Shown here: positions 29 through 60,500 of the stretch, piece by piece | Layout of the letters: the number at the start of each line of letters is the position of its first letter | How positions within the stretch are numbered: the first letter of the stretch is position 1 | Source of the DNA: Pohlia nutans | Taxonomy: Eukaryota; Streptophyta; Bryopsida; Bryales; Mniaceae | Assembly (NCBI GenBank): GCA_022496805.1 | Contig: CM040088.1 | Span: 9,083,001-9,147,000, forward strand | DNA length: 64,000 nucleotides | Direction of reading: 5' to 3' | Made by a program: the position numbers and the translations under genes | Notes under the pieces: generated by a model | The model's input: only the letters and a program-made list of their open reading frames with translations | Database searches by the model: none | Told to the model about the DNA's origin: nothing

Positions 29-603
29 TGAACCCCTAACTGCCTTAGCGTCCATTTTTTGGACGATGTACAGATTTCATCCCTATTTTCTCATCCGTCA
101 TGCAATTTTTCCAGTGTGGATTTTTTACTCTAGATTCTATGGGAAGTTAGCTTCATGAATGTGTGATCCGATTAGAAAGGGGATGATTTGTGAAATTTTA
201 TGCCTCATTTCATGTTGTAGTGATTCACCCAAAATTTCAAAGATTTCAATGTAAAAGTGCTTTTGAAAAAATCAACTCATAAAATTAAGCAACCAAAAAA
301 TCTCCAAAAATCACTACAATTAGAGTATTACATTTCAACCAATCACAACAAATTTCATCTACAAATTGTCAATATCCTATTCGTAATCGAATTACAAAAG
401 AATTTTGAATTTTGAGTTTCAAATTTTATACAAAATATTGGTGATAGTAATCATAGATCTAACCGCATGGATAGAATCAAAAATTCATAATGTACAACTT
501 TTATTCAAACATTAACTTCAAAATATCCCTCTTAGTTGCATTTTATAATGCATCTTTGCAAAACTGCCAAACTTGGAGAGGGCTCTAGGCATTTAGGGGT
601 TAA
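29..603 (+). mobile_element. TTAA-flanked MITE, family A, copy 1
   Basis: The element begins with AACCCCTAACTGCC and ends with TTTAGGGGTTAA, so its termini are inverted copies of CCCCTAA with TTAA at the right edge and a decayed TGAA at the left. The body is non-coding and about 70% AT. It is closely similar along its length to 719-1283 (opposite strand), 31010-32492 (interrupted), 47593-47873 (truncated) and 55861-56430. A four-base TTAA target and a CCC start are typical of piggyBac-type transposons. No transposase is present. Confidence 0.75.
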
Positions 604-718
604 TGCTTGCCAAACATTTCACCTTCTTGTACTGTACAAGGCCTCCCAAACCTTGTTCCTCATCTGTTCCGCACAGGCATAAAAAAAGTGCAGCCACAAT
701 TCTACTAGTTGGTACTGA

Positions 719-1283
719 TTAACCCCTAAACGTCCTCACGTCTCTCCAAATTTGGCAGTTTTGTGAAGATTCATCATGAAATGCAACGCAGACGAATATT
801 TTTGAACTTGATGTATGAATAAAAGTTTTACATTATTAATTTTAGATTCTAACCATACGGTTGGATCTGCAATTGCTATCACCAATATTATTGTATAAAT
901 TTTGAAACTTGAAATTCAAAACTCTTTTGTACAAATAAGATATTGACAATTTGTACATGAAAATTGTTGTGACTGGTTGAAATATAATACTCTAAGTGTA
1001 GTGATTTTTGAAGATTTTTTGTTTGCGTAATTTTATGAGTTGGCTTTTTTAAAGAGCACTTTTACACTTAAATCATCAAAATTTTGGGTGAATCACTTCA
1101 ACATGAAACGAGGCATAGAAATTTCACAAATCATCCCCTTTCTAATCGGATCACACATGCATGAAGCCAACTTTCCATAAAATATATAGTAAAAATCCAC
1201 GCTGCAAAAAGTCAATGACAGATGAGAAATTTGTGTTTGATTCTGTCCATCGTCCACATTCTGGTTGGACGTTTAGGGGTTAA
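719..1283 (-). mobile_element. TTAA-flanked MITE, family A, copy 2 (inverted)
   Basis: This copy has exact TTAA at both edges (719-722 and 1280-1283) and termini CCCCTAAACGTCC / GGACGTTTAGGGG. It is the reverse complement of the copy at 29-603 over its whole length, with a 115-bp spacer between them. A transcript through both could fold into a stem of more than 500 bp. Confidence 0.8.
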
Positions 1284-4600: not shown

Positions 4601-4679
4601 GATGCAAGTCAATGAATTGTTTTAATACTTATAAATGAATGTAACCATTGGCGATTTTTTTGCTATGTATATTTAAATT

Positions 4680-8890: not shown

Positions 8891-8897
8891 ACACATC

Positions 8898-11620: not shown

Positions 11621-13054
11621 TTAACCCCTAAAGGACCGGAGTGCTTTTCCTCCATAAATACTCAAATGCTGCCATTTTTACTCCCCCATGCAAAAATTCC
11701 AAAAAATTGTTATTTTTTACCTCCTAACCGTAAGATCTTGTCCTAAACTGCTTAAAAAAAATACACAACAAATTTCGTTCATTTTGACCGCACGGATTGC
11801 AAGATAATTGCGTTTGATGGGAAAACACCCCAAAGAAATACATGCCCGAAAATTTCAGATGTTGACCGTGGTTACATCAAGAAAACCTTACTACCAAAAC
11901 CTGTCGCACTTCACTTTCACATTCTATATGATTTTACTTAGTTGTGTACCAAATTTTGTAACGTTTGGAGATGTTTAGGATGTTGAACATCCTGCACATG
12001 TTGAGTGTTTAAATGTTCAGAAAAGACTTGTTTTTGAATTGCAATATTTTTAACTTTTTTAATTTAAAATACAAATCGAAGTGGTGAAATGTAAGTACAT
12101 TCTACCCTCAATAAGGTAGGAGCACCTAATTCCAACAGTGTACCCAAAGCGGATAATTTCTTGACATGGTAGTCATTTTAGAATGTGAATCTAGGTAGAC
12201 TATAGATAGCTTAATAGTTTGGTCAACAAACAATAAGGGCTCTATGACGTGCTTAGATTTGCGTTCTAAAAAGACTACCTTGTGTAGAAATTATCGGCAT
12301 TGGGTACACTGTCAGTATTAGGTGCTCCTACCTTGGTATGGCGAAAAAGAATTTGGAAAAAAAAAAACTCCAAGTTTTAGAAGACATGTAGCATAGTTTC
12401 TAAGAATTTTGGGGGATAGGGGGGAAATAAAAGGGTGGAGGAAGGGAATCGAAGCGCCACCTCACCCAACCCATTCCAATGTTCATAACCTCACTAACTC
12501 TCGAGGTGGACTGCCATGTGGCAATCTTTCATTGGATGAATTTTAATTTTAATTTTAATTTAAAAAATGATTTTAAATTTCAAATTGTTTAAATAATATA
12601 TTTAAAATTAAAATTTGAACTTTTAATAAAAAATAATACTTTTAAAATAAAAAATAAAAAATATCAATTTGAAATAATAATTATATCTATAAAAAGTTAA
12701 TTTTTAAATTTTTAATGTATTAATTTTAAAGTTTTTAATGAGTTTGGAAAATGGGGTGGTTTTCTGCCCCCCACAATCCATCCCATTTTCCACACTTGGC
12801 CCATCTTGTTGCACCCCCCCAAAATTCAACTATTTCTCTATTGCCCCGCTGCCCTTTCTCTCGAAAAAAACACATTTCTCCTCATAACTTCCACATATGG
12901 TATCGGAATTCAAAAGAAAAGAATCTCCATTATCGTGGCACACTTGGGAATGCACCATTAAATTTTCTTCAAAATTCGATTAAAAATGTGTTCACCGGAA
13001 CCTACCCGGTTCTCTAAATGTCCTAGTTAGAACACTTGGTCCTTTAGGGGTTAA
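11621..13054. mobile_element. Long TTAA-flanked non-autonomous element (1.43 kb)
   Basis: Exact TTAA at both edges (11621-11624, 13051-13054) encloses termini CCCCTAAAGGACCGGAGTG and its inverted partner ACTTGGTCCTTTAGGGG. It is the longest undisturbed member of the TTAA group here. Its middle is very AT-rich (12540-12740) and carries a second, foldback element at 12113-12334. The 88-codon frame at 12751-13017 has no recognisable protein sequence. It begins about 300 bp after the RPL5 stop. Confidence 0.7.
12113..12334. mobile_element. Foldback MITE nested in a TTAA element
   Basis: Two arms of about 85 bp are inverted copies of each other at roughly 80% identity, starting AAGGTAGGAGCACCTAAT and ending with the reverse complement, around a loop of about 50 bp. 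Shared internal motifs are ACAGTGTACCCAA and GATAATTTCT. No clear target duplication could be fixed. It is a separate family from its host element. Confidence 0.7.
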
Positions 13055-13681: not shown

Positions 13682-14002
13682 ATAACCCTTAAAGGTCCTT
13701 GGGGATAGTAGATACGTTACCGTATATTTGACATTTATTGTAAGTAGAAAGTTCCGAATTGAGATCCTAATAGCTTTTAAGACCATGTAGACATGAATTT
13801 TAACTTCACTTTTGATATGAAACTCATAGGAGGTGTAAAACCATTCTAAATACAATGAAATATGAAACTCATAGGAGGTGTAGAACCATTCTAAATACAA
13901 TGAAATATGAAACTCATAGGAGGTGTAGAACCATTCTAAATACAATGAAATACGGCCGTATAATACTGGCCGGAATGGGCAATCTGGACCTTTAAGGGTT
14001 AA
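13682..14002. mobile_element. TTAA-flanked MITE abutting the NMO stop codon
   Basis: Termini ACCCTTAAAGGTCC and GGACCTTTAAGGGT are exact inverted copies; the right edge is TTAA and the left a decayed ATAA. It ends 11 bp from the stop codon of the nitronate monooxygenase gene, so it likely forms part of that gene's 3' untranslated region. It contains the three-copy 45-bp repeat at 13817-13951. Confidence 0.75.
13817..13951. repeat. 45-bp repeat, three tandem copies
   Basis: The unit beginning ATGAAACTCATAGGAGGTGT occurs three times head to tail at 13817, 13862 and 13907. Copies 2 and 3 are identical and copy 1 differs at one base, so the expansion is recent. The repetitive minus-strand frame across it is a by-product. 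Confidence 0.95.
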
Positions 14003-14012
14003 GCATTCCAAC

Positions 14013-17000
14013 TTACACCATGGTACCCAGTTGGGAGAGGAGAGTAGCACGAGATTTGACCAAGCCTGACAGCCGCTGCTCTATGATGGCCTGCGCCTCC
14101 TCCAGGATTCCATTTACCACTTGGGCTGCAGGAAGGATTTCCTTGATGAGAGCGGATCCAGTGCCTCCATACATCGCCATGCTGTCTACATCGCCCTCTG
14201 TCGTTGCGTTTGGAGCAAACCCAGATAACCTCGTAATGTCCACCGTCTGCCATCCGACAAGTCCCTCGTTATGATGATGATAATCATCAACAATTCACAA
14301 CTGCTGTGCAATTTAGTCAGTCCCAAAGCTTTTGCAACCCCGAGATTGTACTTGTTGGATTACCAAAACAAAGCTGCTGGCCTATGGCTGCTGTATCCTG
14401 TGCATGATGTTAAGGAGAGGTTGTCTGAATCGAAAAGGGTGACAACATTGTATCAAAGGTCACAGTGATCTTGCAAAGGCTCCTTTCTGTATCATGGGGA
14501 AGCCTTTGTATGATCACTCGGGAGACCTCTCCGTGAATCATGGCAAACATTCTCTTTATGGAGTCTGAATGTAATTTTGCTGAAAACCATGTAGAATGCT
14601 CACTTTTCCAAATACCAAAGACTGGCCAATTACAGGCTGGTGATTCTCATTCTCTTCGGCGCCAACTTTGTGCTTCCATGTTTCAAAGAAGGGAGTTCGA
14701 AGAACACGGCTGCCACCCGGCCAAGCAGCTCTCCCAAATATATCTGGAAACTCCGTGCCGTCTGTGCCAGCGTTTACCACCTGCTGCTTGTAGAGTGGAT
14801 GTGCGTTTGCCTCCACTGTTGCCAGAAACCTGCCGATCAACACACTCGTAACATTCTTGAGTATTAGTTGTCGAGAACAGCACCAACTAAGAGTTCAATC
14901 CAGAACAAAGTCCTGCCAAATTAGTGCAAATCAAAGCTCTTACAGACTCACATGTGAAGACAATGGCTCCTTGGCTTCAGGAGCTATCAGTTTGCAAAAA
15001 CAAGGTGTCAAGAATTCCATTTCATCTCAACACGGGTTCTCTAGAACAGGCTAGGAGTGAGCCTTAAGCATGTTCTATCAGATTAGTTGAAAGCATTGAA
15101 ATGGTGACTGATTACCATTTCATCTTGAAACGGTTTAGATTAATATATTAGAGGACTGCCAATTCAGCTCAAATCGAGCTAAATGATCTAGGTAATTAAT
15201 TACCAGTTTAGGGTAAACGAGTTAGGATAATCTATTAGACTGCCAATTCAGCTCAAGTCCAGCTAAAGGTTCCTAGAACTACCTAGAGGTTTTGAGCAAA
15301 TTAAAATACAGTTGTGATTAAATTTGATGTGGAGAATACTGCTATGGTTACAGAATGTAGGTCTGCCAATTCAGCTCGAGTCAAGCTAAAGTGCTTCCAG
15401 AAGCACCTAGAGAATACGAGGCACATTAGGAACAATTGAACTCGATTCGAGTTGATTTCCAATTTATTATGTACAGTTGAAATTACAATAAAACTGGAGA
15501 ACGCTGCTCAAAGTTACAGGATAAAAATTAATATTCACGAACTGTATGATACCCTCTCAGAAAGATACAAAGCTGCAATTCCGACCAGCACATTACACAG
15601 CACATTTATTCATTGATTGAATTGAGCAAGCCACTGTCAAGCATGTGTAAACCGAGAAGTGGAAGTACCTGGTTCCCATGCAAACCCCCTGAGCACCAAG
15701 AGCAAGGGCAGCAACGTAGCCACGGCCATCAACAATGCCCCCAGCAGCTATGACCGGGATTTTGTACGCCCGGATGGCATCCACTACACTTGGCAGCAGC
15801 GTCCACAACCCTGTCTGCGTAACCCTATTTAGTGAGCATACAGTCTCTTCCCGAAATCCAACATTCAAGGCATTGTGCATGGATGCAAGTGTTGAAGAAG
15901 GTAGAGGATACGAAACCCAGTGGTTTTTGAAGTGGATACCAAAAGCAGGTGACTTTTTTAAGTGACACTTGCTTTTGATAGTCACCTAAAACAAAACTAC
16001 TAAACCCGTTGGGGACATGGCTATTCACTAACCCTTGCTACCAGCAACAATTTTTTTCCTCCAATACTCTTGATTGGCCTTCAATTAAAGTTGGGTGTAA
16101 ACATGAGTTTGCTAAGTGTCTATGATCATTGATCTTTGAATGGAAGTGGAGTCGTCTACTGTCCCTTCAATGGTGGTCTAGAACCTCCATTCTGAAAGAT
16201 TGCATAAGAAATCATCATAAATTGAGTTTAAGGAATTTGATCTCAAAAGAGTTTGGCTATTGTAGCACCCAAAGTGATCTCTCTATATGCTTGATCTCGC
16301 AATGAAAGCACACTCCTACAAACTTAGCTCAAATTTTGAAAGGAGAGCTTTTGCTGTCACGGGGTAACAAGGATCGACTTACTCTGCTAATGATATGTCC
16401 ACCAGCTTCAAATCCTTGGCAAATGATTGCATCCACTCCCGCTTCAGCTGCCTTTAAGGCTTCCGCCACTGACCCCACCTGCTCCACATTAACACAATCA
16501 ATGACTAATTTGTACTCTAGAGGATCCTGAGGAGGAAACCCTAGCACACTAAAGAGTTTCTTCCTCCAGGTCCAATGCATTGAAAAACCCCAAAATAAAG
16601 ACCCCCCACTGAAAGACCCTCAAAATCACAAACCCTACATAGTAAATAAGTAGGGTTTGTGATAAGGTTAGAACGGCGTGTGCAAACCATCCAGCTTAGA
16701 GTCTAACAAAAAAAATCTACGGATGGATGGGGTGTTCTAGGGGTTGATCTCATTGACCTTTGGTTTTTATAAATCCACTAGGGTCCGTCAGCTTCAAGAA
16801 TGCCACTCCTGTCCCCAATTTTGGTCACACTAAGACTTGCAACCCTAATTGGGGTTGCCCACCAAGACTGTCGAGATCCAGCGACAGCCACATGATAAAG
16901 AAATTTTCACAAGAAACTCTAAAATCACATGAGGGAGCGTCAGAGCTCTCGACTTCTAGTGCAAGCTTTCCCTTGTCCCAATTATACTAGCCTGCGTAGG

Positions 17001-18875
17001 GTTTTCAAATGGCGTTTCAGAATGGCCTCTAGTTGTGGAGCAGAAAGCTCGCACAATTCCTATAGAAAGCTGTGTAACTGAAGAATGTAACTGGAGCATG
17101 GGATATATGTATGACCTGATGGAGGACCTTGACCCCCGCGGCGTGGGCTTCGTCCACACGCTCTTTCGGAAACTCCCCGAAGTACACTTGCAGAAACGCA
17201 ATCTTCTCAGCGTAGATGTGTGGCAACATCTCTTCATAAGGAAACGCAAGCACAATGGCCACGCCGAACGGCTTGCTCGTCAGCTCCCGGGTGCGCGCCA
17301 CCACCGCTCTCAGTGCCTCTGGCTAGCTCAATTCAATCCAAGCCACCACAAACACTATATCTCAGGGTACAGCCCTCACTGCGATTCCAGCAAAGTACTC
17401 TGCTCCTCCAAATCCATATGCACACATAGTTTACACCATGGGCTTGTGAAACCCCATCTTCGTTAACCCTTAAAGGACATGGCTCTCCTGATTCCCACAC
17501 CCACAATCTCTTTTAAACTCCATTTTAAGCGTTATCATCTTTTTTAATTTACTTTGGTTCCATTCTAAAGAAGTATAGATGCTCTAAATATGTTCGTTTT
17601 TGGCATTTAAAAACCCCCATTTGGTTCAACGGAGTAGAAATTATGAGCACGATTCTCCACCCCAAAAAAGTAAGCCCGTGGAGCTTAGTATGTCCTTTGA
17701 GAGCTAACCCAGTAAAGGCTGCGTTTTGAGGAACCGGAACCCAACTGATAACTAAACCTCGTATCTAAACTGATCCTAGGTTTTAAAGCTCAAGGTTTCA
17801 GGTGGACACCTCAGAACCCATCATCAGGAGCACTTGAAAGTCCTAGTTTTCCAAAGCTCTCGGCGCTTGAACGGAATAGTTTTCAGAGTTTGAGCCACTC
17901 TGAAATCCGCCATTACATTAGCTAATATGACCATAGTGAACGATGAAGAGGAACTCTGATGCATCCTCTGACAAATAATATTTGACACTGAATGAATTCA
18001 AAGACCAATTGGCCACCTCAAAACCCATCGTCAGGAGCACTTGATCAAGTCTTAATTTGCAAAGCTCGACTAGGCACTTGCAAAGTACAAGTTTTACAGT
18101 ATTTGGAGCACTTGAATGTCACATTTTGGACGCTTCTGAAATCCGCCGTTCAATTAGCTCATATGACCATAGTGAAGGATGAAGCGGAACCATGGTGCAT
18201 CCTCCGACTTAAAAAGTTTGACACTGGATGCATTCAAATACCAGTGGGCCACCTCAAAACACATCTTCAGAAGCACATGAAAATTCCGATTACCGAAGCT
18301 CTACGCACTTGAACATAATAGTTTTCCGAGTTTTGAGCACTTGAAACCCGCCATTAAATTAGCTCATATGACGATGAAGAGGAGCTATGATGCATGCTCT
18401 GACAAAAAGATTGAAACTGAATGAATTCAAAGACCAGTTGGCCACCTCAAAACCCATCGTCAGGAGCACTTTAAAGTTCTAAATTTACAAGTCACTCGAA
18501 AGTACAAGTTTTACAGAGTTTTGAGCACTTGAAAATATAATACATTTCCGAGTTTAGAGCACTTGAATGTCACCTCTGAAACGACGAATATGACCATAGT
18601 GAGCGATGAAGCGGAACTGTATATGATGCATCCTAACTTCTGGCTTAACAGTTTGGCAGCAGTGGAGGGAATTCAAAGAGCAATTGGTGATGAGGGGGGA
18701 GACGATGAATTGCAATTAAGTAGGTAACCTGAGAAGGGGCCCGAAGCAATCCCAATCCGCCGGCGTTGGCCACAGCGGCCACGAGGTCGGGACCCGTGAT
18801 GTCGGGTCCCATGGGTGCCACCACGATGCCGTTGCGCAACCCCAGGATGCCGCCCCACTGCGATGACGCCGCCAT
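14013..18875 (-). CDS. Nitronate monooxygenase (2-nitropropane dioxygenase family)
   Basis: This is an FMN-dependent TIM-barrel enzyme that oxidises nitronates to carbonyl compounds and nitrite. The predicted protein has 351 residues. Exons on the minus strand: 18875-18729, 17322-17116, 16478-16383, 15814-15669, 14829-14604, 14246-14013; all phases agree. Diagnostic stretches in order: NGIVVAPMGPDITGP at the N-terminus, GGLGLLRAP, PFGVAIVLAFPYEE, AHAAGVKVLHQVGSV, GVDAIICQGFEAGGH (the conserved AGGH segment), IPVIAAGGIVDGRG, ALGAQGVCMGTRFLAT and EANAHPLYKQQVV, followed by the plant-type C-terminal region with DIFGRAAWPGG. No targeting peptide is obvious. Intron 1 (1.4 kb) carries a MITE and a four-copy tandem array; intron 4 holds three spaced copies of a motif starting CTGCCAATTCAGCTC (15156, 15240, 15363). 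The reading frame is intact. Confidence 0.93.
17463..17707. mobile_element. TTAA-type MITE in intron 1 of the NMO gene
   Basis: It starts TTAACCCTTAAAGGACATG and ends GTCCTTTGAGAGCTAA, a decayed inverted terminus. The body matches 48935-49173 in reverse orientation (shared CCCACACCCACAATCTCTTT and AAACTCCATTTTAA). Confidence 0.65.
17803..18690. repeat. Four-copy satellite-like array in intron 1 of the NMO gene
   Basis: Copies begin near 17803, 18011, 18247 and 18440 with GGCCACCTCAAAACCCATCG or a variant, and are about 190-250 bp long. Other shared motifs are CAGGAGCACTTGAA, TTAGCTCATATGACC and GAATTCAAAGACCA. The array runs to within about 40 bp of the exon 1 donor. Confidence 0.85.
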
Positions 18876-20118
18876 GGCTTCAGTTAGCTAACTTAGTTGC
18901 CGATCCACGTACTATCCAACACGGTTTGTTTTCCTGGGCAATTGCAACAGTACTGTATGTTCGATCTCTCTCTCTCTCTCACTCACACACCGGTTCTTCA
19001 CTCTCAGATTCTCTAACTAGTCACAGCGTCAGTGATCGAGACTGTTACAGTGAAAAAGTTGGGTTGGAATTATGTGCGTTTGGCGAGGAGAAGCCTCGCA
19101 CACAGCTTCCACATCACCATCCTTGTTTGACAAGGTTCAACAGTCGTCATTTCATTTCATTTCATCTCATCTCAGAGCGCATGCGCACCCTTCTCCAAAT
19201 TTACTCCTCACTGCAGGATATTTTCATCTCGTTAATTTTTTCCTCCCCAACCCACAAATACTGTATCTCACCTTGTCGTTACATTCTACAACACTACGTA
19301 TCTCACCTTGTCATTACATTCTATATGCACCCCTACTGCTTCATTTGATTTTTTATTGATACACTAACTTTCCCTGGAACTAGAGTGAAAGATGACACTT
19401 GCCATCATATGAGGGAATTTAGTAGGAGTTAAGCAAGTAAAACGAACTCAAGATGTGAAAACAAAGAGCATCCAAGAGCATTAGAGAGAATCTTGGAAAC
19501 TTTAGTAGGGGTATAAAGTTTAGGGCTTAACAATGTTATGTTGCACAATCCTAAACAAATGTCAGATTGTCATGTGTTCCGAGAGAGAGAGTAACGCGGG
19601 CCATAGGTCCGTATGAGTTAAGCATTTGTTGGGGATAGTGATACTAGATACGTCATTAGGATCTATATAGTGCATGCCATGTGTTCTAACACAAGTCCCC
19701 ACGCCATTAATTATTTTCAAACTTGCTAACATAATGGCAACTTGGTTTAGAGGAGTTTATTGTGACATTGATATATCTTGCAAATCTAACGTCCCAAAGT
19801 GCATGTACATGTGTTGCCAAAAACCTTTATCCAAAATATGTAGAAAAAGGGTGGATACAGGCGTAGGGTGCACATTCTCTTATACACGGTACTTGTAGAC
19901 ACCTATTGTAATTCCAACTCATTCAACTGAGTATCCAACTATAAAAGAGTAATTCCACCGGTGAAGTTTGTATCTCTCTTTTTGAACCTCATATATCAAA
20001 CCAAACCTAAATTTTTCCAGCTAAAAGGAGTTTGGATAGTATCTAAAAGCAATATATGAACTAGGAGTGCTTTGGTTCACAATTTTTTTTTCTCAAGTCA
20101 AATCTGGATCTCAATTTT
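18876..20118. other. NMO upstream region
   Basis: This interval should hold the NMO promoter. It contains a CT microsatellite at 18965-18983, a CATTT repeat at 19148-19175, and a short duplication with TATCTCACCTTGTC (19264 and 19299). No gene is seen. Confidence 0.5.
19373..19545 (-). repeat. Dispersed repeat, inverted copy of 36912-37083
   Basis: About 170 bp match the reverse complement of 36912-37083, with shared motifs AAAGATGACACTTGCCATCA, GAGCATCCAAGAG and AAACTTTAGTAGGGGTA. Termini and target duplication were not resolved. Confidence 0.7.
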
Positions 20119-23589: not shown

Positions 23590-23590
<1 letters not shown>

Positions 23591-32399: not shown

Positions 32400-32492
32400 A
32401 TCAAGTTCAAAATATCCCTCTAGGTTGCATTTTATAATGCATCTTTGCAAAACTGCTAAATTTGGAGAGGGCCCTAGACATTTAGGGGTTAA

Positions 32493-41343: not shown

Positions 41344-41348
41344 GACTA

Positions 41349-42767: not shown

Positions 42768-43082
42768 AAACGGCCAAAATTTGAGAGAGATTGAACAAAA
42801 CAGCACTCAAAGATGTAGGGCAGCATTGACTACAAAAGATTCTATGAGTATGGGGTAAATTAAAAAAAACTTCTATGGATAACTCTACTTTAAAAATTCA
42901 GCCCAAGTGCACAATGGGCCATGACTCAACTCTCTTGGTTTACACCAAATGTTTGGGCCACTACCTACTTATAAGTCCCTTGTTTCAAGCATGGTACCCC
43001 ACTTACAATGGTCTCATCCCTTGAACAAAGTACCACTTGTGTTCATGGGTTGGAGCCCAAGTTTTTTGGTGTAAACAGGCCC

Positions 43083-44423
43083 TTAGACACGGGGTCTTTC
43101 AGTTCCAAATTGGGTAAGTTACTATGATGTTTGGGGCTTTTTTTTCTTTTATAGCGTTGGAGCATCCATTTTTATAAGGGGGTGGAGATGTGATGAACAA
43201 GCCATTGCAGTAGGACCTCAACTTTAAATCCACTTGATGTTAATGCAAGCACTATTCACCTATGCGTCCTATTTTCTGAAATTTTCATTTCGAGCATCCT
43301 AGGGATTTTTTTTTGGCAATTTTTTTTGCAAATTTGAGGCCGACGGTTTCAATATAATCCACAAGGACCCTCTCAGGAATTTTAATCCATTGGAAGAAGG
43401 GATTATCTTTTAAGGTGGGCCCCAACATGCACAAAATAGGGGGCAAGTTTTGTCTTATTGCATTAACATCGAGAGGGGATTTAAAGCCGTCATTTGCTTG
43501 CCCATCACTAGTTCTATGAACTATTTTAACTCTTAATTTTCTCAATTTTCAAGACCATGAATTGTTAATAATGAAGAAATATTTTTATGATTTATTTTGT
43601 TAGGCATCATTAGTGACAAGAATAACATGTACCTACATTTTTGGAATGAAAATTACTGCTATATTTTGAGGTTAAAACTCAAAAATACTCCTCTCTTTCT
43701 AAATATCCTATAAGGGTTGATGAGGTTTACCAAACTGGTAACTATAGTCGGGAAAAGAGAGGCAGGTACAGGAACTCAGCGTGGATGAATATGGATGAAC
43801 ACTGGACTTTTCATCCACTATTGTAGAGGCTGGGTGTTCCATTCTTCTTCGTCTTCTTCAGAAGCGCTGGAAATGGGTGGGCCATTCAAAGTTGCTGTGC
43901 AGCATGCCGGTTGACGGAATGTGAGCTAATAACTCAATTCTGCGGTGGTGGTTTTTATTTAGCATTTGGGTTTCAGATTCGCTCGCATGATTCCCATCCT
44001 GCTCCAACGTCCCTTTGCTCTCCAGGCAACAAACACTCCTTCGCCTTTACCATATTCTCCAAAATCCTCACATTCTTCTCATTTCAAAGAGCCAAGCCTG
44101 CACGCCATTTGCTTGGAATCCCCCCCCTCATTTAAAGATCCACGCACTTGGGGTTAGGCTGGTGTTGGTCGAATTCGTCCTGTCGAAATCACGACGGAGA
44201 TTTGTTGGTGCTTGTGTGCTTGTTGCATTGTGTGATAGAAGTTCGTTTCTTTCTTGTCTGTGAGTGGAGTGTGGTCGATCTGTTGAGGAAGTGCATTTGC
44301 AACGTCGTGCATTTGGAGCTTTGGCTATGGCGAAGCAATGGAAATAGAGAGGTCTGCTTTTAGTTTTAGTTTTGGAACAGAGTGTGGAGACATTAGTTCA
44401 GAGGATTGGAACCAGCGTTTGCA
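43083..44423 (+). other. Interval upstream of RABF1
   Basis: Contains a decayed G-family MITE (43556-43723) and the promoter and leader of RABF1. The overlapping frames at 43911-44363 show no conserved protein sequence. Confidence 0.45.
43556..43723 (-). mobile_element. Decayed MITE remnant related to 35674-35883
   Basis: Reverse-orientation similarity to the SCPL intron 3 element, with TGAGGTTAAAACTCAAAAAT and a degenerate end CCTATAAGGGTTGA. The left boundary is unclear. Confidence 0.5.
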
Positions 44424-46770: not shown

Positions 46771-47045
46771 ACACATTCTCTAGAGCATTTGTTTCTGTTA
46801 CTACCGAATGCCAGAGTTTGGTGATTTGTAGCTACTACTCCACATTGTCAATAGTGAACAGTCTGTGCTGCTTTTCAGCTGCTTTTTGTTTTGTATATAT
46901 TTATATGATAATAAACTTCGCCCTTTGTTGGATCTCTCTTGCATCAAATGCCGCAGAGGCCAATATCAGGGTTTTACAAACCTTGTGTTCTTTCAATGTG
47001 ATTGTATGATTATTTCAATCCTTTGTTTGTGTTGACTCCATATTT
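46771..47045 (+). other. RABF1 3' flank
   Basis: Probable 3' untranslated region; no other feature. A TTAA-type right end (CTTGGGGGTTAA) lies in the preceding RABF1 intron at about 46442-46453, without a recognisable left partner. Confidence 0.4.
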
Positions 47046-47500
47046 GAGTTAACCGAAAACAGAACACGAGTTTCAAGGCCCAATATTCAAGGCCCAATAT
47101 TCAAGGAAATGGAAATCAATGCTCTCATTGAGTGTAACCGACCAAGAAAAACTCCCCTTTTCCTTGGTCTTCGCCTACTATAATCCTAAAATGGAGAAGA
47201 ATATGTAGAAACCGGAAAGTGGGAAGGTTGGGTGAAGGTTGTTGGAAGCAGCTTGCAAGCTGCTTCTTGAAAATTGTCAGACAAAAAGGACCTCCCAAAT
47301 GCCTTCCAGTTGAGCCAACGATGCTCTGACAGCCAAAATCCATGTTCAACTAGTTTTGCCGACCAAAAAAACGGCAAAACTAGTTGAACATGTAATCTAT
47401 CTATGGATTTAGTACAACCATGCCAGTAGAATCGGTTGCCCTTGACTCACCTTCAACTCACCTTACCTAAGGGGAGTTTTAGCTTCTTTTCGGTTAACTC
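47046..47500. mobile_element. Foldback-type element with GAGTTAACCGAAAA termini
   Basis: The left end GAGTTAACCGAAAA and right end TTTTCGGTTAACTC are perfect inverted repeats of 14 bp. Inside lie a second inverted pair (AAAACTCCCCTT near 47145 and AAGGGGAGTTTT at 47469), a 22-bp palindrome at 47245-47266 and a perfect 21-bp hairpin at 47341-47392. A target duplication is not clear. Confidence 0.55.
47341..47392. other. Perfect 21-bp hairpin
   Basis: CATGTTCAACTAGTTTTGCC plus G is followed after a 10-base loop (ACCAAAAAAA) by its exact reverse complement. There is no T tract, so a terminator role is unlikely. It sits inside the foldback element. Confidence 0.9.
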
Positions 47501-47592: not shown

Positions 47593-47873
47593 TTAACCCC
47601 TAATCGTCCAACCGTTCAGAAAGTGTACCAGAATCAAACACAATGTACCGAATCAAACACAGTTTTCTCATCCGTCATTGACATTTAGCATCGTGAATTT
47701 TTTATTATATATTGCTTGAGAGGTTAGCTTCATGCATGTTTGATCCGATTAGAAAGGGGATGATTTGTGAAATTCTTATGCCTTGTTTCATGTTGTAGTG
47801 ATTCACCCAATTTTTCTTAAGATTTCAATGTAAAAGTGCTCTTAAAAAGTCAACTCATAAAATTAAGCAACCA
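47593..47873 (+). mobile_element. TTAA-type MITE, family A, 3'-truncated
   Basis: Starts TTAACCCCTAATCGTCC and follows family A through GATCCGATTAGAAAGGGG to AAAATTAAGCAACCA, then stops abruptly where other copies continue for about 290 bp. Confidence 0.75.
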
Positions 47874-48276
47874 ACTGCGGATTTGATGTCCACAACCGTC
47901 TCAAAAGTGGGTTTCAGAGAAGCTACTTCCATTGATGGAGATGCTTTATTGTTGACAGAACCTGGCATGTGATGCACTTGTGTTCTTCCATGACACTTTC
48001 AATGTGCAGTTGGAACGGGAAGTTTCTCAAGAAAACCAGCTAAAATCCATTATTTTACAAAAGCAACCGGTTTTAGACAAGAATCCATCCGGTTATTACC
48101 CATGATTCACCTAGGTAGCACCCAAGTATCACAAGTTTTATCCAGATTTTAGCCTAAAACTATGAGTTTTAATCAGTAATTTGGCAATTCCATTTGGCTG
48201 ATTTTACACTAACTGCCAGATCTCCCTATACATTGGTTGGCAGTTGCCACCTAACTTAGACCAAGGATTCATGGTT
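47874..48276. other. Non-coding interval
   Basis: No gene is seen. The last 20-30 bases (CCAAGGATTCATGG) match the left part of the element at 57860-58101. Confidence 0.45.
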
Positions 48277-48783
48277 TTAACCCCTAAAAGCTCGAGGGGT
48301 ATTGGACAAAACATAGATGTGTTATAATATGTGCCTTTCATATATTTGATGAAGTTTGATTCAATAAAAAAAAATGTAGGGCATCACCTCTACAAATTAT
48401 CCATACGGTCAAACTTCCAAAAAAAACTTTAGATATTTTTTTAATTCAAATTGCGTTGAAAAGTAGACTTGATACAATATTTCAAAAGATTTTTATTTTT
48501 TTTTCAATTTTTTTGGAGCAACCCGTTAGAAACGAGCAACAACCAAAAAACGGTCTCTTGGGAGTTTCAGATTTAAAATGAAAAATTCAATAAATCATAT
48601 TGTGAAAAACATAATTTAGATGGGACCAAATTTTGTACCATCAAAATCAATAAAGAATATTGTACATGTGGTGGTTAAAAAACATATCAATTTGAAGTAA
48701 AAGAGGTCTACATAGGATCAACTTTAAAATACTAAAAAAAAACATGATACCCAATTTGGGCTTTCTGGTCCTTTAAGGGTTAA
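48277..48783. mobile_element. TTAA-flanked element, probably composite (family E)
   Basis: TTAA at both edges with CCCCTAAAAGCTCG at the left and GGTCCTTTAAGGG at the right. Only the part from about 48570 onward matches the E element at 57860-58101. The short match just left of 48277 suggests that an E copy was itself entered by another TTAA element. Confidence 0.6.
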
Positions 48784-48934: not shown

Positions 48935-49173
48935 TTAACCCTTAAAGGAACCAAGCCCCACGGGTTCTATTGTATTTTGGGAGAATCTTGCTCATAACTT
49001 CTACTCCCTTGCACAAAATGAGGTTTTTTAAATGCCAAACCAAGCACCTTTGAGAGATCTACACTTCTTTAGAATAGAACCAACATAAATTAAAAAGAGA
49101 ATCATGATTAAAATGGAGTTTGAAAGAGATTGTGGGTGTGGAATCAAAATAGCATATGTCCTCTAATAGTTAA
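48935..49173 (-). mobile_element. TTAA-flanked MITE, family F
   Basis: TTAA on both sides; CCCTTAAAGGAACC at the left and GTCCTCTAATAG at the right. The body is the reverse complement of the intronic copy at 17463-17707. Confidence 0.7.
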
Positions 49174-50702
49174 TGAACATTTAACTTTCTAAAAGCCACT
49201 CTAAAATTCTTAGTTGAACAAGCGTTTCAAAAGGCTTCATCTCTTGTTTATCCTTTTTTGCTTCTTATTGTTGTCATCATAATCATTAACATATTTTAAT
49301 CCCTAATTGCCTAAGCACATTTGACCAAGACAAGGGAAGCAATTTTGTATGATTTCCACAACTTTTTCCTATTTGAATTGTGAAGAAAGATTGTAGCAAT
49401 GATTTGGTACTTGCCATTTTCATCGGGGGGGGGGGGGGGGAGGGGGCACTGGCGAAAATTGTAGAAATAACGTGCAATAAAAATAGAGTCTAATATATTC
49501 ATTGTAAATAAATTTTGCAAAAAATGTACATATAATATAGGGGGTTTTAAAATAGTGAAAACGCTTATGTGTAAAACACATATAATGGCCTCTTTTATCT
49601 AGTCAATACATGTAAAATAGCGTGGAAACAATTACTAGGGGTAGCATGTCTATGATAGGGTTGGTGCTAGTGGATGAAAAGAGGTAATTTTTTGTTGAAA
49701 AAGCTTGCATGGATGACTTCACAAGCTGGCTAGCTTGAACATTACTGAACCAACGTATCCAATGTGGAGTTAATGTTCTCTACCCACGTGCCGGGAGGGA
49801 AAATTTTAGCGTGTAGTTTGAATTGCAATCTTTTTTCCAATTTTCTTGGGGTATAGTCAAAAGAATTGGTTACTTGGGATATAAGAAAAAGAATGCAGTA
49901 TAAGTAAAATAGGGTATTTTTAAATGATTCCCCAAAAAATTATAATTACTCATAGGGTGTATTAAAATACAAGCATTTCCCTTTTATTTTGAAAATACCA
50001 TACCTTATAATCTTTTCTGCAAGGTAAATAGCCCCCTGATAAATAGATCCTAAGCGCACGTGTATGCAAAATATTAGAGGGAGTGCACCCTCTGAGCCAT
50101 TTAGTATAGTTGGTGGACAAGGTTCGCACTTTTGTGTCAAATAAATAAACGTTCAAAAAATGGAATATTTGATAATATTCCCTTTTCACCATACCAAAAA
50201 GAATTCCCAAGATTTTTGGCATTATTTTGCTTTTGGAATTTTTTTTTTGCCAATCTTGCCTTCCACCTACGGTATACATGTGGATTTTCAAAAATAATTT
50301 GGATTTTTTGTTATTCATTTTTGAAATAAACTATATCATTATAAATTTTAATATCAAAAATACATTTTTAATTTGAATTTTGGTATGATTGGCTAAAAAG
50401 GGAGATTTGTGATATGTTCAAATTGAGAAATTCATTTCCCATTTCTGTTTTTACAAAAGTATCTAAATTTTGCTATTATAACGATTAAAATCAAGATCTT
50501 GATAGCTTAAATGAGAGTTGTATTGCATTATTTAGTATATTCTATACAAGTCATTTTTTCAAGACTATGTAACTTACAATCTTATTTAGTTTAAATTATA
50601 AAACTCTTCATTTCTATGGGCGTATACAAATTATAAATGAAATATGATTTATTGGACTACATAAATATACATGTATCCAAAGTTTGGCAATGCCATCCTA
50701 CT
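49174..50702. other. Non-coding AT-rich interval
   Basis: No gene is supported. A possible extra MITE left end (TTAATCCCTAATTGCC) occurs at 49296 and a run of G at about 49425-49440. The frames at 49946-50329 show no protein similarity I can recognise. Confidence 0.45.
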
Positions 50703-51247
50703 TTAACCCTTTAACGTCTCGATTCAACATTGTTTTCAAAGAAGCGTAATTAAATGTTTAATGAAAACCAAAATGGAGTTGATGTACAAAGCAAAGTTGT
50801 AAATGTCAATGTGAAGATCACATTTGTAAAGTTGGATTTATCATATTATTTATTGTTTATTTATTTTTAATTTTTGAAGGTTTTCTCTTGAAATTCAATT
50901 AAAAATCTAAAATTAACACAAAAAAATCTCAAAAATCTCAACAAAATTGGAATAACATGCGCTATGAGATGGATTGGTTTCCATTATTTGATTGTACTTA
51001 TTTTGGAAAATCATGTTTGAGGTCTCACTTTTTGAACTAAGAATGAAACTTGACATAAACCGATTGTGTTATTTTCCTAAAAATCATAATAACCTATTTT
51101 GAAGATCTAAACCATTCAAAGGATAGTCAACTTGCTCAAGAACCAAGGGTAATTTGGTAGATGAAAAATGTCCAATCTGAATGAGATTCGAACAACTTTA
51201 ATCTGTTCGTCGTCCATTATATGGACGCTGGCGCGCTAAAGGGTTAA
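50703..51247 (+). mobile_element. TTAA-flanked MITE, family D
   Basis: Exact TTAA edges with CCCTTTAACGTCTC and GGACGCTGGCGCGCTAAAGGG. The body matches the decayed inverted copy at 30389-30926. Confidence 0.75.
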
Positions 51248-53235: not shown

Positions 53236-55087
53236 ATGTATTCATGGATTCTGCGCCTCAACACGGTGCTCACATTGAGCGTCACGGTGCTGGCTGCTCT
53301 CTGCGCGGTGGCTTCCATGACGGATAACTTGCATCGCCCCACGCCCTCGGTCGAATTGGAGGTCTTCTTTCTCACTTAGGGTTTTTTTTTTTTCCCTGGA
53401 GAATAATCAGCTGGTCGTTGCTTTAATTACAAGGTCGTGAATTATGAGCTTGACTGGACGTTAATACATGGGCTGTGGCAGGTTTTGAGTGTTGGACCTT
53501 TGGAAAGACTACGCAACGGCGATGACAAGGTATTGTCTACTTCTTGGATTAGTTGTTAGAGTTTGACTCCTAAGCGTCCCCTGTGTATTTTCTGTAATGT
53601 AGGAAAATTGGACCCCCTGCTGCAAATCATCTGTTTATGTGAAAATGACTTCAGTTTGACACGATCGACACTGTTGATCTTGTAGTATAGAACAAGAGCT
53701 TTAAAACGATGTATTGCAATCAGAAAACCGAGGTAAAATGAGAAATTGTCACCGTTGCAAAGTTCAGTGATGCAGATGGCCATATTGGGCGTTTTAGACG
53801 CTTAGGGGTTAATGTTCATTTGTTTCCTGTATGTCAGTGCTGTGTTGAGCTTCTATGGGTGTATAATTCATCTCGTGTGGCATTCTTTTGAGTGCAGGTT
53901 TCTTTGTTACTGAGCATTAAGGCAGACCTGGAGTCTGTGTTCACCTGGAACACCAAACAGGTATGGATTATTTATTCTTGATTTTTGTCCGTCTTGTTTG
54001 ATAGCACTCTTGTTAGTAGAGTTTTTAATTACTGTTATTCTTCAGTTAACAAGGAAGAACGTAAATGTTTGAGAGGTCTGATAGGGCATAACATTCTTGC
54101 TGAGGCACCCTCGTAATTGGCATGAAAAGCAACTTGTTTTGCAAAGTTGAGCTCAATTTAAACAAGTGAGCTTTTGGAGCCAATGAGTTATTTCTTCACA
54201 TGTGATATTATGTCAGAGCTTTGATTTTACTTTGATTTGGCACGACATATCTCTAAGTGACTCTTAGTTGGCACTGTTCTCAGAACGTGCCATGCCAAGA
54301 ATGTGAACCGAAAGTAATTAGTCATAACGATGAAGTGTCGTACTCCTGGCGTTGACATTGTTTTTTAAGTTACAGTATTGGGCATAACTAGTTAATTCTA
54401 GGGTTTCTGCTCCATGTACTCTGCTCCATATGTCTTGGAAGTGATCATCTTTAATTGCTATTTTGGGGATGTATTTTATTCGTGAGACTTATATGTGGTC
54501 GACTCTTCTCTTGGTCAGCTTTTCGTGTTTGTAGCAGCCGAGTATTGGAATCCTGAAAAGGGGGGATTTAATCAGGTACAAGTTACCTCACTCTAATTCT
54601 GCTACATTCCTTTTTAATAGCATTTCTCCAAATTATTATGCCAATTCTGTACACTATTGTAAGCTCAAGTTTTGCCCCTGTTTTTAAGTCCTCAATTTCT
54701 TCGTCGAAATGCAGATTTCTTTGTGGGACACAATTATCGAGAAGAAAGAAAACGCGAAGATCAATCAGCAAGTCAGAACCAAGCTCTTGAGGAAAGCAAC
54801 TAGAGTTGGATATTTCACATACCCCTTCCAAGTAAGCTTGAAAATCTTCTGCTCATTATTGTCGTGCGCACAATAGAACAGAATGGTTTGATTGTTGAAA
54901 CAGCCAGTTCTCAGTCACGTTTCGCTGAAATACTAACATGGTTTGATGTGTTTCCGTGCAGGGTAAAGACTTGAAAGGCCGTGAGTTCAACTTAACAATG
55001 TATTGGAACGTGATGCCAATCACTGGTGTCTTTATTACAGACAAAGTAGTTATTCCAGGGTTCCAACTTCCAACTTCATATAATTAG
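53236..55087 (+). CDS. SPC22: Signal peptidase complex subunit 3 (SPC22/23)
   Basis: An ER-membrane subunit of the signal peptidase complex that supports removal of signal peptides. Exons: 53236-53361, 53482-53529, 53898-53960, 54519-54575, 54715-54831, 54962-55087; the protein has 178 residues (plant homologues about 167). One transmembrane segment lies near residues 8-28 (TVLTLSVTVLAALCAVAS), followed by a lumenal domain. Diagnostic parts are SLLLSIKADLESVFTWNTKQ, LFVFVAAEYWNPEKGGFNQ, SLWDTII, GKDLKGREFNLTMYWNVMPI and the C-terminus VVIPGFQLPTSYN. All introns are GT-AG and phase 0. Intron 2 contains a TTAA-type MITE. Confidence 0.95.
53563..53812. mobile_element. TTAA-type MITE in SPC22 intron 2
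   Basis: Right edge TTAA with GACGCTTAGGGG; left edge TTGA with CTCCTAAGCGTCC. The 250-bp element occupies most of the intron. Confidence 0.7.
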
Positions 55088-55860: not shown

Positions 55861-56430
55861 TTAATCCCTAAACGTCTTCACCTCTTTCCAAATTCGGTTG
55901 TTTTACAAAGATGCATTATAAAATGCAACTAAGAGGGATATTTTGAGCTTGATGTAAGAATAAAGTTGTACATTATAAATTTTAGGTTCTATCCATACAG
56001 TTAGATTTGCGATTACTATCACCAATATTTTTGTATAAAATTTGAAATTCAAATTATTTTGTAATTCAATTACAAATAAGATATTGACAATATGTGGATG
56101 AGTTTTGTTGAGATGGGTTGAAATGTATCACTCTCTAAGTGTAGTAATTTTTCAAGATTTTTTGGTTGCCTAATTTTATGAGTTCATTTTTACAAGAGCA
56201 CATATACACTGAAATCTTTAAATTTTTTGATGAATCACTACAACATGAAATGAGGCATACAAATTTCACAAATCATCCCCTTTCTAATCCGATCACACAT
56301 GCATGAAGCTATCTTGCCATAGAATTTTGTAGTATTTTTGTTCCTTGCAGAAAGTGCATGACGGATGAGAAAACGTGGATGAATTCCGTACATAGTCCAA
56401 AAAATGAACAATTGGACAGTTAGGGATTAA
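55861..56430 (-). mobile_element. TTAA-flanked MITE, family A variant
   Basis: Full-length family A copy in reverse orientation. Both termini carry the same change, TTAATCCCTAAAC at the left and GTTAGGGATTAA at the right, instead of TTAACCCC. Confidence 0.8.
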
Positions 56431-57502
56431 TCAAACAAGTGTCGGTTAAACCTTGGTAAGATCGCACCGTTGAATTTGAGTTAAATTTTCAAAATTGAAA
56501 GTGAAAAAGGTTCAACAATGACCTATGTCAACACCTCTCCATTACACTCTTTCATGTCAAGAACAGACTCACACATAATTATTGTGAATTTTATAAGTAA
56601 GAGTGACTTATCCATATACGGTTTAGGATAAAATTTATACATATAAATATGAGTTGGTACATTGGTCAAGATCATAACACATACACTAATGGAACATGAA
56701 CAAGAGAACACAATCCAAAAAATAAAACAAGATAACAATCTTCCAAACACAAGAAATACCACATTGTACATGTGATGTATTTGTAAGTACTTCCTATATT
56801 TTGAGATATTTGCAATGTTTTGTAGATAGGTGTTTTGATAGCTTCACAACTCCAAATCAAGAATTTCTTTTTAAAGGGTGTGCATGAGATAAATCCCTAC
56901 AAGTGAACTTCAAACATTGATGCTTGGTTTGGAGTAGATCTTACAGTAGTTTGCAAAAACATGGCTCAGTGACCACAATGTGGTTGCGTGTACTGTAAAG
57001 CGTTATAAAGGTGATATTCATGGGTGAGGTTTCATAACACTGTAGAGAAACTGCAAATAAAATAATTCAACTCTCCAACCCAGCTGAAGTTAGAGAAAAT
57101 GCTCTGCAATTCCTGTGATCCCCTGATAGATGCTTGAGATTCGGAGGTGTAACAGTGGGCCTCTAAAGAATGTTATGTTCAACACATAGTAGTGTGAGGA
57201 CATTTATTAATTCCTTAATCAGGGCTGCGGCAAACAACCCTTCTAACACTGTCGCTAAGAGCAAGTGGAATTCAAAAACAGAGGAGCACCATGCCAAGAA
57301 AATCATCACAAGAAACAGTGACTATTAGTCCACTATGCTTGATAAATTAAATTAAATTCAGTACCTCATTACCACAAATGCGGTACCTCATATAAGAGAT
57401 ACTTCTCATACACAAGAGAAGGACGCGTCTCTCAAAGAATGTATTTTGACCGTTTGATAGTGTAAACAACTATCAATACATCAATCAATACTTCCCAGGC
57501 AG
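56431..57502. other. Non-coding interval downstream of HisRS
   Basis: No gene is supported; the part nearest 57502 should be the HisRS 3' untranslated region. Confidence 0.45.
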
Positions 57503-60500
57503 CTATGAAAGTGAAAGTGCGATGAGCTCATCCACTGTCTTGTCTGTCGTATCCCGCGCACCCAAGTCCCTCACGTTTACTTTCCCTTGCTCCCATTCGG
57601 TTGGACCCAGAACTATCAAGCGCTTAGCCTTCAGCGTGTCGCATTGTTTAAATACCCTGTGAGATACACTAATATATTAGACACACTAATAACATGAGCA
57701 TGTATGTGTAAGCTTCATCAATCCAACCAACCCAACCAACCCAATCGGATTGTCAGCAGATGATACACTGGGAAGAGAGATGTTCTGTGTTCACCTGAAT
57801 ATGTCTATTTTTCACCTGTGCTACAATGAAAGGTACATATATCTGCACTTATGCTGCTCATTAGCCCCTAAAGGACCAAGGATTCATGGTTTTAAAATGA
57901 CAAGTTTAATTGATCATGTTCTGAAAAATAGAATTCAGATGGGTACAACATTTATATCGTCAGAATCAATGAAGAACATTGTATGTGTTGGTCAAAAAAA
58001 CCAAAAAAATTGAACAAAAGAAACTCCACATAAGATTTACTCAAAAATGCTAAAAAAAAACATGAGGTCCAATTCGGGCTTCTTGGCCCTTTAGGGGTTA
58101 AGCAGCTGAGTAATGTTGGGATAAGCTGAGGGAAGACGATGCAAGGAGCACTTACCACCTCATTTTCTTGTCCTTCTCAATGACAAGTTCAACAACCCGA
58201 CCAGCATTGCGCAAGCGTGAGGCAACTCCAGCTGCTTGCGCCTTGAGTGAATCCTCCAAAGTAAATACAACGTCATCAACGGCGTGAGGGAACACAGGAA
58301 GCAACCCTTTCTCCATCAGAAGCTGCATGAACCCAGCAAGGGTCAGTACATTCCTTATGCTCGAGCCAAGCTCTTCACTCAAGTTCCAAGGTAGATGAAA
58401 ACTACCTACACTAGAATATCCCCATCTTGAACACTGACTCACTGAGATTTGTAGCCACAAAATCAAAAATCCGTTCATGACAACTGAAGTATATTCCGGG
58501 TATCATTGCCTTCATAATAGTATTGAACATAAAATTAAGATTAAGCAGTACTCAAGCTGTAGAGGGCTACTGATTTTGAAGTTAAGGTTCAACTTTCCAT
58601 CTAGCTCTCTAAGGTACACAAGAAGAATGTCTACAAGGTTGATATCTGCTTTTAAATAGTGCAAGAGAAACCCTAAACAGTAGAACGTGGAAATGCTTCC
58701 TGACCTCAACAATAACAGCATCTCCAAAACCAAATCCACATGCAGGTGTGTCTTGGCCTCCATAGGTGGAGAGTAGCCTGTCATAACGACCACCTCCGCA
58801 TATAGCTCGCAATTTCTTGTCCTTATCAAAACCCTGGAACATAGCCAACATTAGCACATATTCCCCAAAATGGACCAAAATTGACGATGACAATAAAAAC
58901 ATACTAGGGGTCAGTGCAAAAAACAAAAATTTGAGGGTGGGGGGGAATCTAGGCCAGCTCTTCCGGCGTGGTTCAATTTCGGAGGGAATCTAGGGAGAAT
59001 CTGGCGAAATTTTGCCCCAAAAATTCCGCTGAACCTCACCTCAAACACAGTTCCGGTGTAGTATGCTAGGCCTCTCACCACTGAGGCATCAAACCGTAGC
59101 CAATCCTGGATACCGTAACCCTCTGCTAACACAAATAGTTGTTTCAGTTCTGCCACTGCACCACTGTTTGCCCCTATTAAAGCTGCAACCACCAGATAAG
59201 AAGTCAATGAAAGTCTTTAAATTATGTTTGAAGTAAAATTAACTATATATCGTTAGTACTCTGTAAGAACAAAACAGAATCAATACATGGTCCACTATGA
59301 TAACATTGAAGTCGCTTTGTCAACCACATCGAGATATTGCAGCCCTGCAAATCTGTCAATTAAACTTCAAACATGCACATCCAGCGGCAGCGTTGATTTA
59401 ACTCACATTGAAATCACATTAGAAGCATTACCTTCAAGATCATCAAAAGATTGAAGCGTAAGTGCTCGCAAGATTCCCTCAATGGCTTCACTGGGAACGC
59501 CAACTCTATCCAGCTCACTCTCGATTTCCTTCCTTGGTAGTTTATCCAACTGACACAAATATCGACAAAAGATAGTGAGCGTATACAAACTCCCTCTCGA
59601 AGAAATTGAAGATTTCCTGAAGCGCAAGAAACAAACGTGCAAGAAAATGTGGAAAAAAACTGATTTCAAGAAGTAAAAGATGCATATATATATTATACCT
59701 TGTCAACAATCACGCATACAGCTGCAAAGGAATCAGGCTGGATATTGTACGTCTCAAGAACTGCTTGCAGCACCTGCCTTGAATCAGGGACGTGATGTTT
59801 GTAAGTTTAACACATCGATCCAGCTTTTAACGACTGACAACTTCACCGTCAGAGATAACCATGACATGACAGTGCTGCAATTTTCAAGAGGGTGGACACA
59901 TCATACTGACGTCCAGATTGTTGACACTTACAGATCTGCAGGAGCCGCATGTGAAAGACATTCAAGTATTCACACATCCCTTCAACTCGAGAAAATAAAG
60001 GTTTGACAGCGGGATTATTTTTACTGAACCAATTATCAGGATTGCAAAGTTCTAAACCAATAATACCAGTTCAACTTATGAGCATAAAAGAGCACAAACC
60101 TTTCGATTTGAAACTTTAATTCCAACGTCATTAGATGTAATGCCAAGCCTTGTGAAAAACATTACGATGGCTGATAAGAGCTCAGCCTCGGCCTAAAACA
60201 AAAGAACAAAAAAGAATTTTAAATCCCAAGTCCAGACTGTCTTCAGAGCTCTTGTATATGCTTGGACACAATGTATCAAGATGCACCGACAGTCCAAAAG
60301 GCAATCCTTGTCATCCCTGTAAAAGTCTACAGAAAATCAGGTTCGTATCATTTTTGATATATTTATATTAAAAACCATAAAACAAAGTACATCCAAAATC
60401 GTTATGTTTGTAGAACATGGTGCAAAAGAACCAATTAAACAACGTAGTAAACAACATTGATAGGGTTCACGAAGCTTGCCTCAACTCCGGGAACACCAAT

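Follow-up and report, generated by a model that had tools for sequence, protein, structure and literature searches.

A 64,000-nucleotide stretch of the genome of the moss Pohlia nutans (assembly GCA_022496805.1, contig CM040088.1, positions 9,083,001 to 9,147,000), hereafter the window, carries a swarm of short TTAA-flanked elements. These are almost certainly miniature inverted-repeat transposable elements (MITEs), that is, non-autonomous members of the piggyBac superfamily, probably moved in trans by the genome's own full-length elements. piggyBac is a transposon family known mainly from animals. The observations behind this assignment are the terminal motifs, the TTAA targets, empty sites, uninterrupted transposases, a modelled transposase fold, and subterminal DNA common to MITEs and full-length elements, at both ends of the MITE Ab and at one end of D2, S1, and E2.

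Five variants of the end motif, each of 17 bp, were sought along both strands of the window, allowing up to 3 mismatches. The motif was found 27 times, compared with 0–2 times (mean 0.5) in ten dinucleotide shuffles. About 18 short elements were counted, in line with the at least 15 elements with TTAA edges and common termini of the original prediction, and both ends could be fixed for 14. In detail, TTAA flanks both sides of eight of these (Ab, B, S1, Ac, G1, Ae, F2, and D2), one base is altered on one flank in five (Aa, C, S2, E2, and F1), and D1 is altered on both. The elements, with flanks and mismatches between the terminal inverted repeats (TIRs), and one empty site are as follows.

29–603, minus strand: Aa, family A MITE; flanks TGAA/TTAA, 2/17 mismatches
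719–1283, plus strand: Ab, family A MITE; perfect 17-bp TIRs, TTAA both sides
11621–13054, unstranded: B, AAAGGACC-type element of 1434 bp with other repeats inside; identical 17-bp TIRs, TTAA both sides
13682–14002, unstranded: C, AAAGGTCC-type MITE near NMO exons; flanks ATAA/TTAA, 1/17 mismatch
17463–17707, plus strand: F1, family F MITE; flanks TTAA/TTAG; 78% to F2, inverted alignment
20118–20945, plus strand: S1, 828 bp; TTAA both sides; full copy at L020:1193-2007, 86.5%
30388–30926, minus strand: D1, family D MITE with decayed ends; 74% to D2; flanks TTTA/ATAA, 11/17 mismatches
31010–32492, minus strand: Ac, family A MITE of 1483 bp with an insert of ~880 bp; TTAA both sides
35674–35883, plus strand: G1, family G MITE between serine carboxypeptidase exons; TTAA both sides, 3/17 mismatches
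43526–43720, minus strand: G2, family G MITE, approximate ends; 84% to G1 over 154 columns
47593–47874, minus strand: Ad, truncated family A MITE; TTAA end at 47593, right end not seen
48255–48783, plus strand: E1, family E MITE with H inside; left end eroded, its position approximate, right end TTAACCCTTAAAGGACC; 76% to E2 over 213 columns
48277–48611, plus strand: H, family H element lying within E1, with its right border placed approximately
48935–49173, minus strand: F2, family F MITE; TTAA both sides; inner TTAA at 49028–49031 is an empty site
50703–51247, plus strand: D2, family D MITE; TTAA both sides
53563–53812, unstranded: S2, 250 bp; flanks TTGA/TTAA, 3/17 mismatches
55861–56430, plus strand: Ae, family A MITE; TTAA both sides; also on the homeologous chromosome C3
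57215–57218, unstranded: empty site, a single TTAA; occupied on C3 by a family D MITE of 546 bp
57861–58101, plus strand: E2, family E MITE; flanks TTAG/TTAA

Families A, D, E, F, and G, as first proposed, all recur in self-comparison, but the element at 48277 was ruled out as an ordinary family E member; it belongs to a separate family, H, nested in E. E2 displays a TTTTAA site unoccupied by H, and further H copies were found in loci L019 and L020. The predicted positions mostly held within one base (20119 became 20118, 57860 became 57861, and 30389 became 30388), while the supposed element start at 43556 falls within the element at ~43526–43720. The element at 47593 was rightly placed in family A, but it is truncated, with no clear right end seen. 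The length of Ac, 1483 bp, is due to a further repeat inserted in it with a 12-bp duplication; this insert (31505–32399, target repeat TATCAAGTTCAA) is retroposed-looking and possibly tRNA-derived.

For family E, 7,739 first-look candidates were obtained from the genome, a figure that does not fix the total copy number. Forty were scored and were 85–100% identical in their main rows; 42 matches to E2 were listed. Among ten places fetched, seven show TTAA at either edge, the left end being decayed in one of them; two pairs of the ten have flanks in common.

Searching the same genome for the DDE_Tnp_1_7 transposase domain yielded 1305 first-look candidates, 116 of which were scored; all of these passed the Pfam cut-off (best expect value, E, 1.6e-81), and 78 of them were without a stop in the matched stretch. 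A TTAA + CCC end pair surrounds the transposase in 13 of the 20 loci fetched, delimiting elements of 5,035–9,103 bp; for the remaining seven, one end was seen in the fetched stretch of L018, L023, and L028, and no such pair was found in the fetched loci L013, L022, L025, and L026. The TIRs of the full-length elements begin CCC/CCY beside TTAA, as expected of piggyBac ends. Longer elements that combine DDE_Tnp_1_7 with the end type and TTAA target of the MITEs are therefore present, and the assignment to piggyBac first drawn from TTAA and CCC is borne out by them. The group formed by L016 (9.1 kb), L018, L023, and L028 has large arrays of 40-bp tandem repeats flanking the transposase on both sides.

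Several of the transposase-bearing, TTAA-bounded elements exist as near-identical copies (98.6–99.4%). L010 and L020 are 99.37% identical over 5,038 columns, with divergence starting within a base of TTAA, and this 99.4% identical pair points to recent movement. L009/L012 (95.6%) and L015/L019 (89.7%) are likewise non-allelic copies that align from TTAA to TTAA and whose flanks diverge.

Nine uninterrupted transposase frames of 442–1102 aa were analysed. DDE_Tnp_1_7 was the sole Pfam family matched, and it was found in all nine proteins at 256–279 bits against a cut-off of 22.4. The catalytic Asp residues D205, D308, and D424 (numbering of protein P0003) are all present in eight of the nine, and D427 is shared too; an excerpt of PMC7351741 gives D268/D346/D447 as the triad of T. 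ni piggyBac. The C-terminal Cys/His cluster (H509, C521, C524, C532, C535, C545, and H550 of P0003) is invariant in the nine aligned rows. The only solved relatives found by sequence at E 0.01 were piggyBat (1.5e-32) and T. ni piggyBac (2.6e-25). A P0003 model built from a 42-row alignment (predicted local distance difference test, pLDDT, 86.3; predicted template modelling score, pTM, 0.81) retrieved the piggyBac strand-transfer complex 6x67 first in Foldseek (E 5.7e-25, template modelling scores 0.63/0.72), with 9c0f also at the top. In four of the nine proteins, 400–620 residues with Arg-Gly-rich or acidic stretches precede the catalytic domain. The ratio of nonsynonymous to synonymous substitution rates (dN/dS) was calculated for nine transposase pairs. 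It was 0.09–0.13, pointing to constraint, in four divergent pairs, two of which are rough at a dS of 1.4 and 2.2; two further divergent pairs were saturated, and three near-identical pairs, with few changes, gave 1.49, 0.88, and an undefined value.

The MITEs were linked to these elements by comparing 34 MITE ends, from 17 of the 18 elements (all except G2), with the 26 ends of the 13 autonomous elements. As a control, 1,700 shuffled ends keeping the 17-bp TIR were used, among which E values of 1e-3, 1e-4, and 3.5e-5 were reached by 46, 8, and 0, respectively. The CTAACTGCC-type end of family A matched the L016 element (L016e), L021, and L024 over 83–125 bp, with E down to 8e-23. In detail, the left end of Aa aligned with L021, L024, and L016e over 96–123 bp at 75–77%, and the TTAA end of Ad at 47593 aligned with L016e over 125 bp at 65%. 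One end of Ac matched an autonomous element beyond the TIR, and one end of Ae was matched as well; no match among the 26 autonomous ends was found for the other ends of Aa and Ac. Both ends of Ab matched the 9,103-bp L016e, which has an uninterrupted transposase, over 30 bp at 90% (E 5e-6) and over 111 columns at 73%. Judged by sequence, family A is thus a piggyBac family, with ends common to an autonomous element beyond the TIR, in Ab at both ends.

Outside family A, the right end of D2 (48 bp, 77%, E 7e-7) and the left end of S1 (37 bp, 84%, E 2e-6) each had a best match, to L016e, beyond all 1,700 shuffles. The right end of E2 matched only L019 and L015 among the 13 elements, over 32 bp at 84% and 78%, with a best E of 3.5e-5. 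On these alignments, the link from MITE to transposase appears firm for family A, good for D2 and S1, and moderate for E2, and the matches of E1, S2, and the second end of Ae are within chance.

It had been proposed that one source of transposase served many unrelated interiors. The A, D2, and S1 ends do fit L016/L021/L024, but one E2 end fits L015/L019; therefore, the two TIR types originally distinguished may reflect two transposase lineages. As a full account, a single source was rejected, the second lineage being drawn from E2. That one lineage mobilised every family is accordingly unlikely, even with a TTAACCC-type start common to all ends, three sets of ends fitting one lineage, only one E2 end behind the other, and an E1 match within the shuffle range. 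It is countered by the exclusive match of the E2 right end to L019/L015, at an E unreached by the shuffles, and by the position of the L015/L019 lineage (P0002), which lies far from the others in the tree described below.

The explanation by trans-mobilised piggyBac MITEs can be put as a sequence of steps. Full-length piggyBac elements of the moss would encode a transposase with a catalytic Asp triad (DDD), which would bind CCC(C)TAAANGNCC-type ends, excise the element, and join it into TTAA, so that TTAA stands on both sides. Deleted or captured DNA with compatible ends would be moved in trans, giving rise to many unrelated interiors. Probably at least two lineages took part, L016/L021/L024 for A, D, and S1, and L015/L019 for the AAGGACC-type family E. 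We infer from the sequences that the proteins are active at present, act in trans, and excise seamlessly.

Target sites were examined on chromosome C3, which carries a homeologous copy of the window from 46.4 to 61 kb at 83–96% identity, a sign that the whole genome or this segment may have been duplicated recently; C3:9526500-9542500 (L048, L049) is this second copy of the window's gene region. At 57215–57218 the window has a single TTAA where C3 has the 546-bp family D MITE flanked by TTAA at either end, and at the TTAA inside F2 (49028–49031) C3 bears a 583-bp TTAA-edged AAAGGACC-type MITE. The original prediction would have been undermined by empty orthologous sites without a single TTAA; these two homeologous sites do show one. 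The two C3-only MITEs may be the younger ones. Among the MITEs compared between 46.4 and 61 kb, none of the window was missing from C3. Two window insertions that are absent from C3 were read and are not TTAA elements: a MITE of another type at 47045–47497, with ends GAGTTAACCGAAAA and a duplication of ~3 bp, and a 676-bp insertion at 49420–50095, flanked on either side by GCCATTT, with a long run of G marking the left end.

A search with joined flanks (158 queries, 27 rows past the filter) yielded four elements that were accepted after the alignments were read, with empty sites elsewhere, in repeats, all without an indel at the junction; such empty sites are indistinguishable from never-occupied sites. 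The empty copy reads TTGA for full-length L021 (against L013, 93.5% over 124 bp), TTAG for full-length L014 (against its neighbour), TAAA for the D element in L019 (against L020), and TTAA for full-length L019, for which L020 spans both sides and L027 has only 21 bases on the left side. The other rows were dropped; most were self-matches of the window along one flank, incorrectly paired ends, or alignments lacking a clear TTAA, such as L020_1193 against L012 and L027_2609_7691 against L020. Ten joined flanks of family E copies revealed no empty site among the fetched sequences.

Several observations weigh against the trans-mobilisation explanation. The match beyond the TIR is confined to one end in D2, S1, and E2, and three further matches are within the shuffle range, namely that of E1 to L019/L015 (E 0.002), that of the second Ae end to L016e (83%, E 2.5e-4), and the best match of S2 to autonomous ends (E 0.005). 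F1, F2, G1, B, C, and H matched none of the 13 autonomous elements at E 0.01. At three of the four non-homeologous empty sites, TTAA is altered by one base. Ad, E1/H, F2, D2, S2, Ae, and E2 are all present on C3 too, therefore those copies predate the duplication; 38 of the 116 scored DDE_Tnp_1_7 matches contain stops within the matched stretch; and P0005 has Asn at the second catalytic Asp, therefore an unbroken frame need not be active. The last three points also favour the view that the elements are old, dead relics whose unbroken transposases are idle or domesticated. We consider this improbable, somewhat more so than a single lineage, since the transposases lie within TTAA-bounded elements with near-identical copies (98.6–99.4%) and two MITE insertions differ between the homeologues.

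Membership in another TTAA-targeting superfamily, Kolobok or Sola3, with coincidental CCC ends, is very improbable. TTAA targets alone are not diagnostic of piggyBac, but full-length elements with the same ends encode DDE_Tnp_1_7 transposases, and family A has ~80–125 bp past TTAA in common with such elements, by which Kolobok and Sola3 are largely refuted for this family. The partners found all carry a piggyBac transposase, in a survey that included no search aimed at Kolobok or Sola3.

The relatives of the moss transposases were assessed from the best 120 of 248 and the best 120 of 228 matches of two homologue searches. The closest proteins listed are jgi, lgn, and ena entries without an organism name, reaching 65% identity across 87% of the query; one fragment has 80% across half of it. 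The organism-named homologues listed are animal proteins at 30–34% identity, and no named plant protein was among the matches listed. A quick tree was made of 46 rows picked by hand; in it, the nine moss proteins and 19 unnamed rows formed one group (support of 100 in the Shimodaira–Hasegawa-like approximate likelihood ratio test, SH-aLRT), separate from eight animal rows and the remaining 10 unnamed ones. Within this group the moss proteins are scattered, and P0002 sits on a long branch, far from the rest. Contamination of the sample with animal DNA, to which the animal names among the best 120 listed per search might point, can be dismissed, since all 116 matches lie on contigs C1–C22 (those of the fetched loci being 12–52 Mb long), the ends of the elements recur in MITEs near moss genes, and the moss proteins are only 30–34% identical to the named animal ones and group apart from them. 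The window elements are taken to be MITEs of a distinct piggyBac clade, one that appears recently active.

The scarcity of piggyBac reports from land plants, as originally supposed, agrees with the literature search in part. No description of piggyBac in a moss was found in the open-access literature, a search that did not cover subscription journals and Repbase. On the other hand, PiggyBac is named among plant superfamilies in three reviews (PMC10004981, PMC2874221, and PMC10794571), and 1230 PiggyBac fragments are counted in a table of fern repeats (PMC6890710). According to PMC5505980, piggyBac had yet to be tried in P. patens, and the plant uses of piggyBac named there concern the moth element. 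PMC10619864 was discarded as a piggyBac report, its match being the word 'piggybacking'. A broader proposition, put forward tentatively and held at slightly less than even chance, is that a deep moss piggyBac clade of 5–9 kb elements, often with long Arg-Gly-rich N-termini, may still be transposing, in at least two lineages each with MITE swarms, possibly amounting to thousands of copies in or near genes.

The genes around the elements were examined in the same assembly (698 Mb, 332 contigs). A 361-aa query joining three carboxypeptidase exons had its best organism-named matches in Ceratodon (79%) and Physcomitrium (76%), compared with at most 58% in conifers, 49–54% in liverworts, and 48–52% in ferns (best 120 of 737 matches), so the host, originally called a plant, is on this evidence a moss. 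G1 lies, as predicted, within a serine carboxypeptidase-like (SCPL) gene, between clear stretches at 33968–34600 and 36103–36459. NMO scores above the cut-off at 15599–15985 but below it at 14562–14894; HisRS is suggestive only, 58615–58989 scoring 23.5 bits against a cut-off of 25. Other transposons are also present in the window. A Helitron-type replicase/helicase occupies 24308–28357 on the plus strand, as a 1350-aa open frame that bears Helitron_like_N and PIF1 helicase domains and no internal stop. In the region 39733–42806, a Harbinger-like transposase (DDE_Tnp_4; 41352–42806, minus strand) adjoins a Myb/SANT-type frame on the opposite strand (40813–41340), a pair that we take to be the usual two-gene layout of PIF/Harbinger. 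Elsewhere in the assembly, more than 50 small contigs (within C26–C329) have a matK match of equal score without a stop, therefore many small contigs are probably plastid DNA.

If these readings hold, the well-described range of piggyBac would extend into land plants. piggyBac is widely used in genome engineering, as scarless exit is possible (PMC7351741). A moss with dozens of native copies that are stop-free in the catalytic domain would supply enzymes adapted to plant cells, and, were the deep active moss clade real, a transposon native to plants that leaves no trace on excision, in the manner of piggyBac. The system would also be a tractable case of how one transposase lineage supports several unrelated MITE families, and the timing of insertions can be tested directly by means of the two homeologous chromosomes.

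Compared with known systems, the moss elements resemble T. ni piggyBac and Myotis piggyBat in the DDE_Tnp_1_7 domain, Asp triad, C-terminal Cys/His cluster, CCC ends, TTAA target, and fold, while the identity in the fold alignment is 20–22%. They are larger, at 5.0–9.1 kb vs. 2472 bp for T. ni piggyBac (PMC10803768), and the long stretch before the catalytic domain in four of the nine proteins, 400–620 residues, also sets them apart from piggyBac and piggyBat. PiggyMac-type domesticated transposases, as presented in PMC8086355, share with the moss proteins a C-terminal domain in which a His precedes the first Cys pair, according to the alignment, whereas the moss proteins, in contrast to PiggyMac and other domesticated transposases, lie in mobile, TTAA-bounded, multi-copy elements. 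The moss MITEs themselves are paralleled by the CMITEs, piggyBac-derived MITEs of Acropora corals (PMC2872659), which are short, have TTAA duplications and CC[C/T]T-type ends, and hold TIRs in common with piggyBac-like autonomous elements. The Acropora elements differ in their animal host, while in the moss the subterminal DNA beyond the TIR also matches and two lineages are probably involved.

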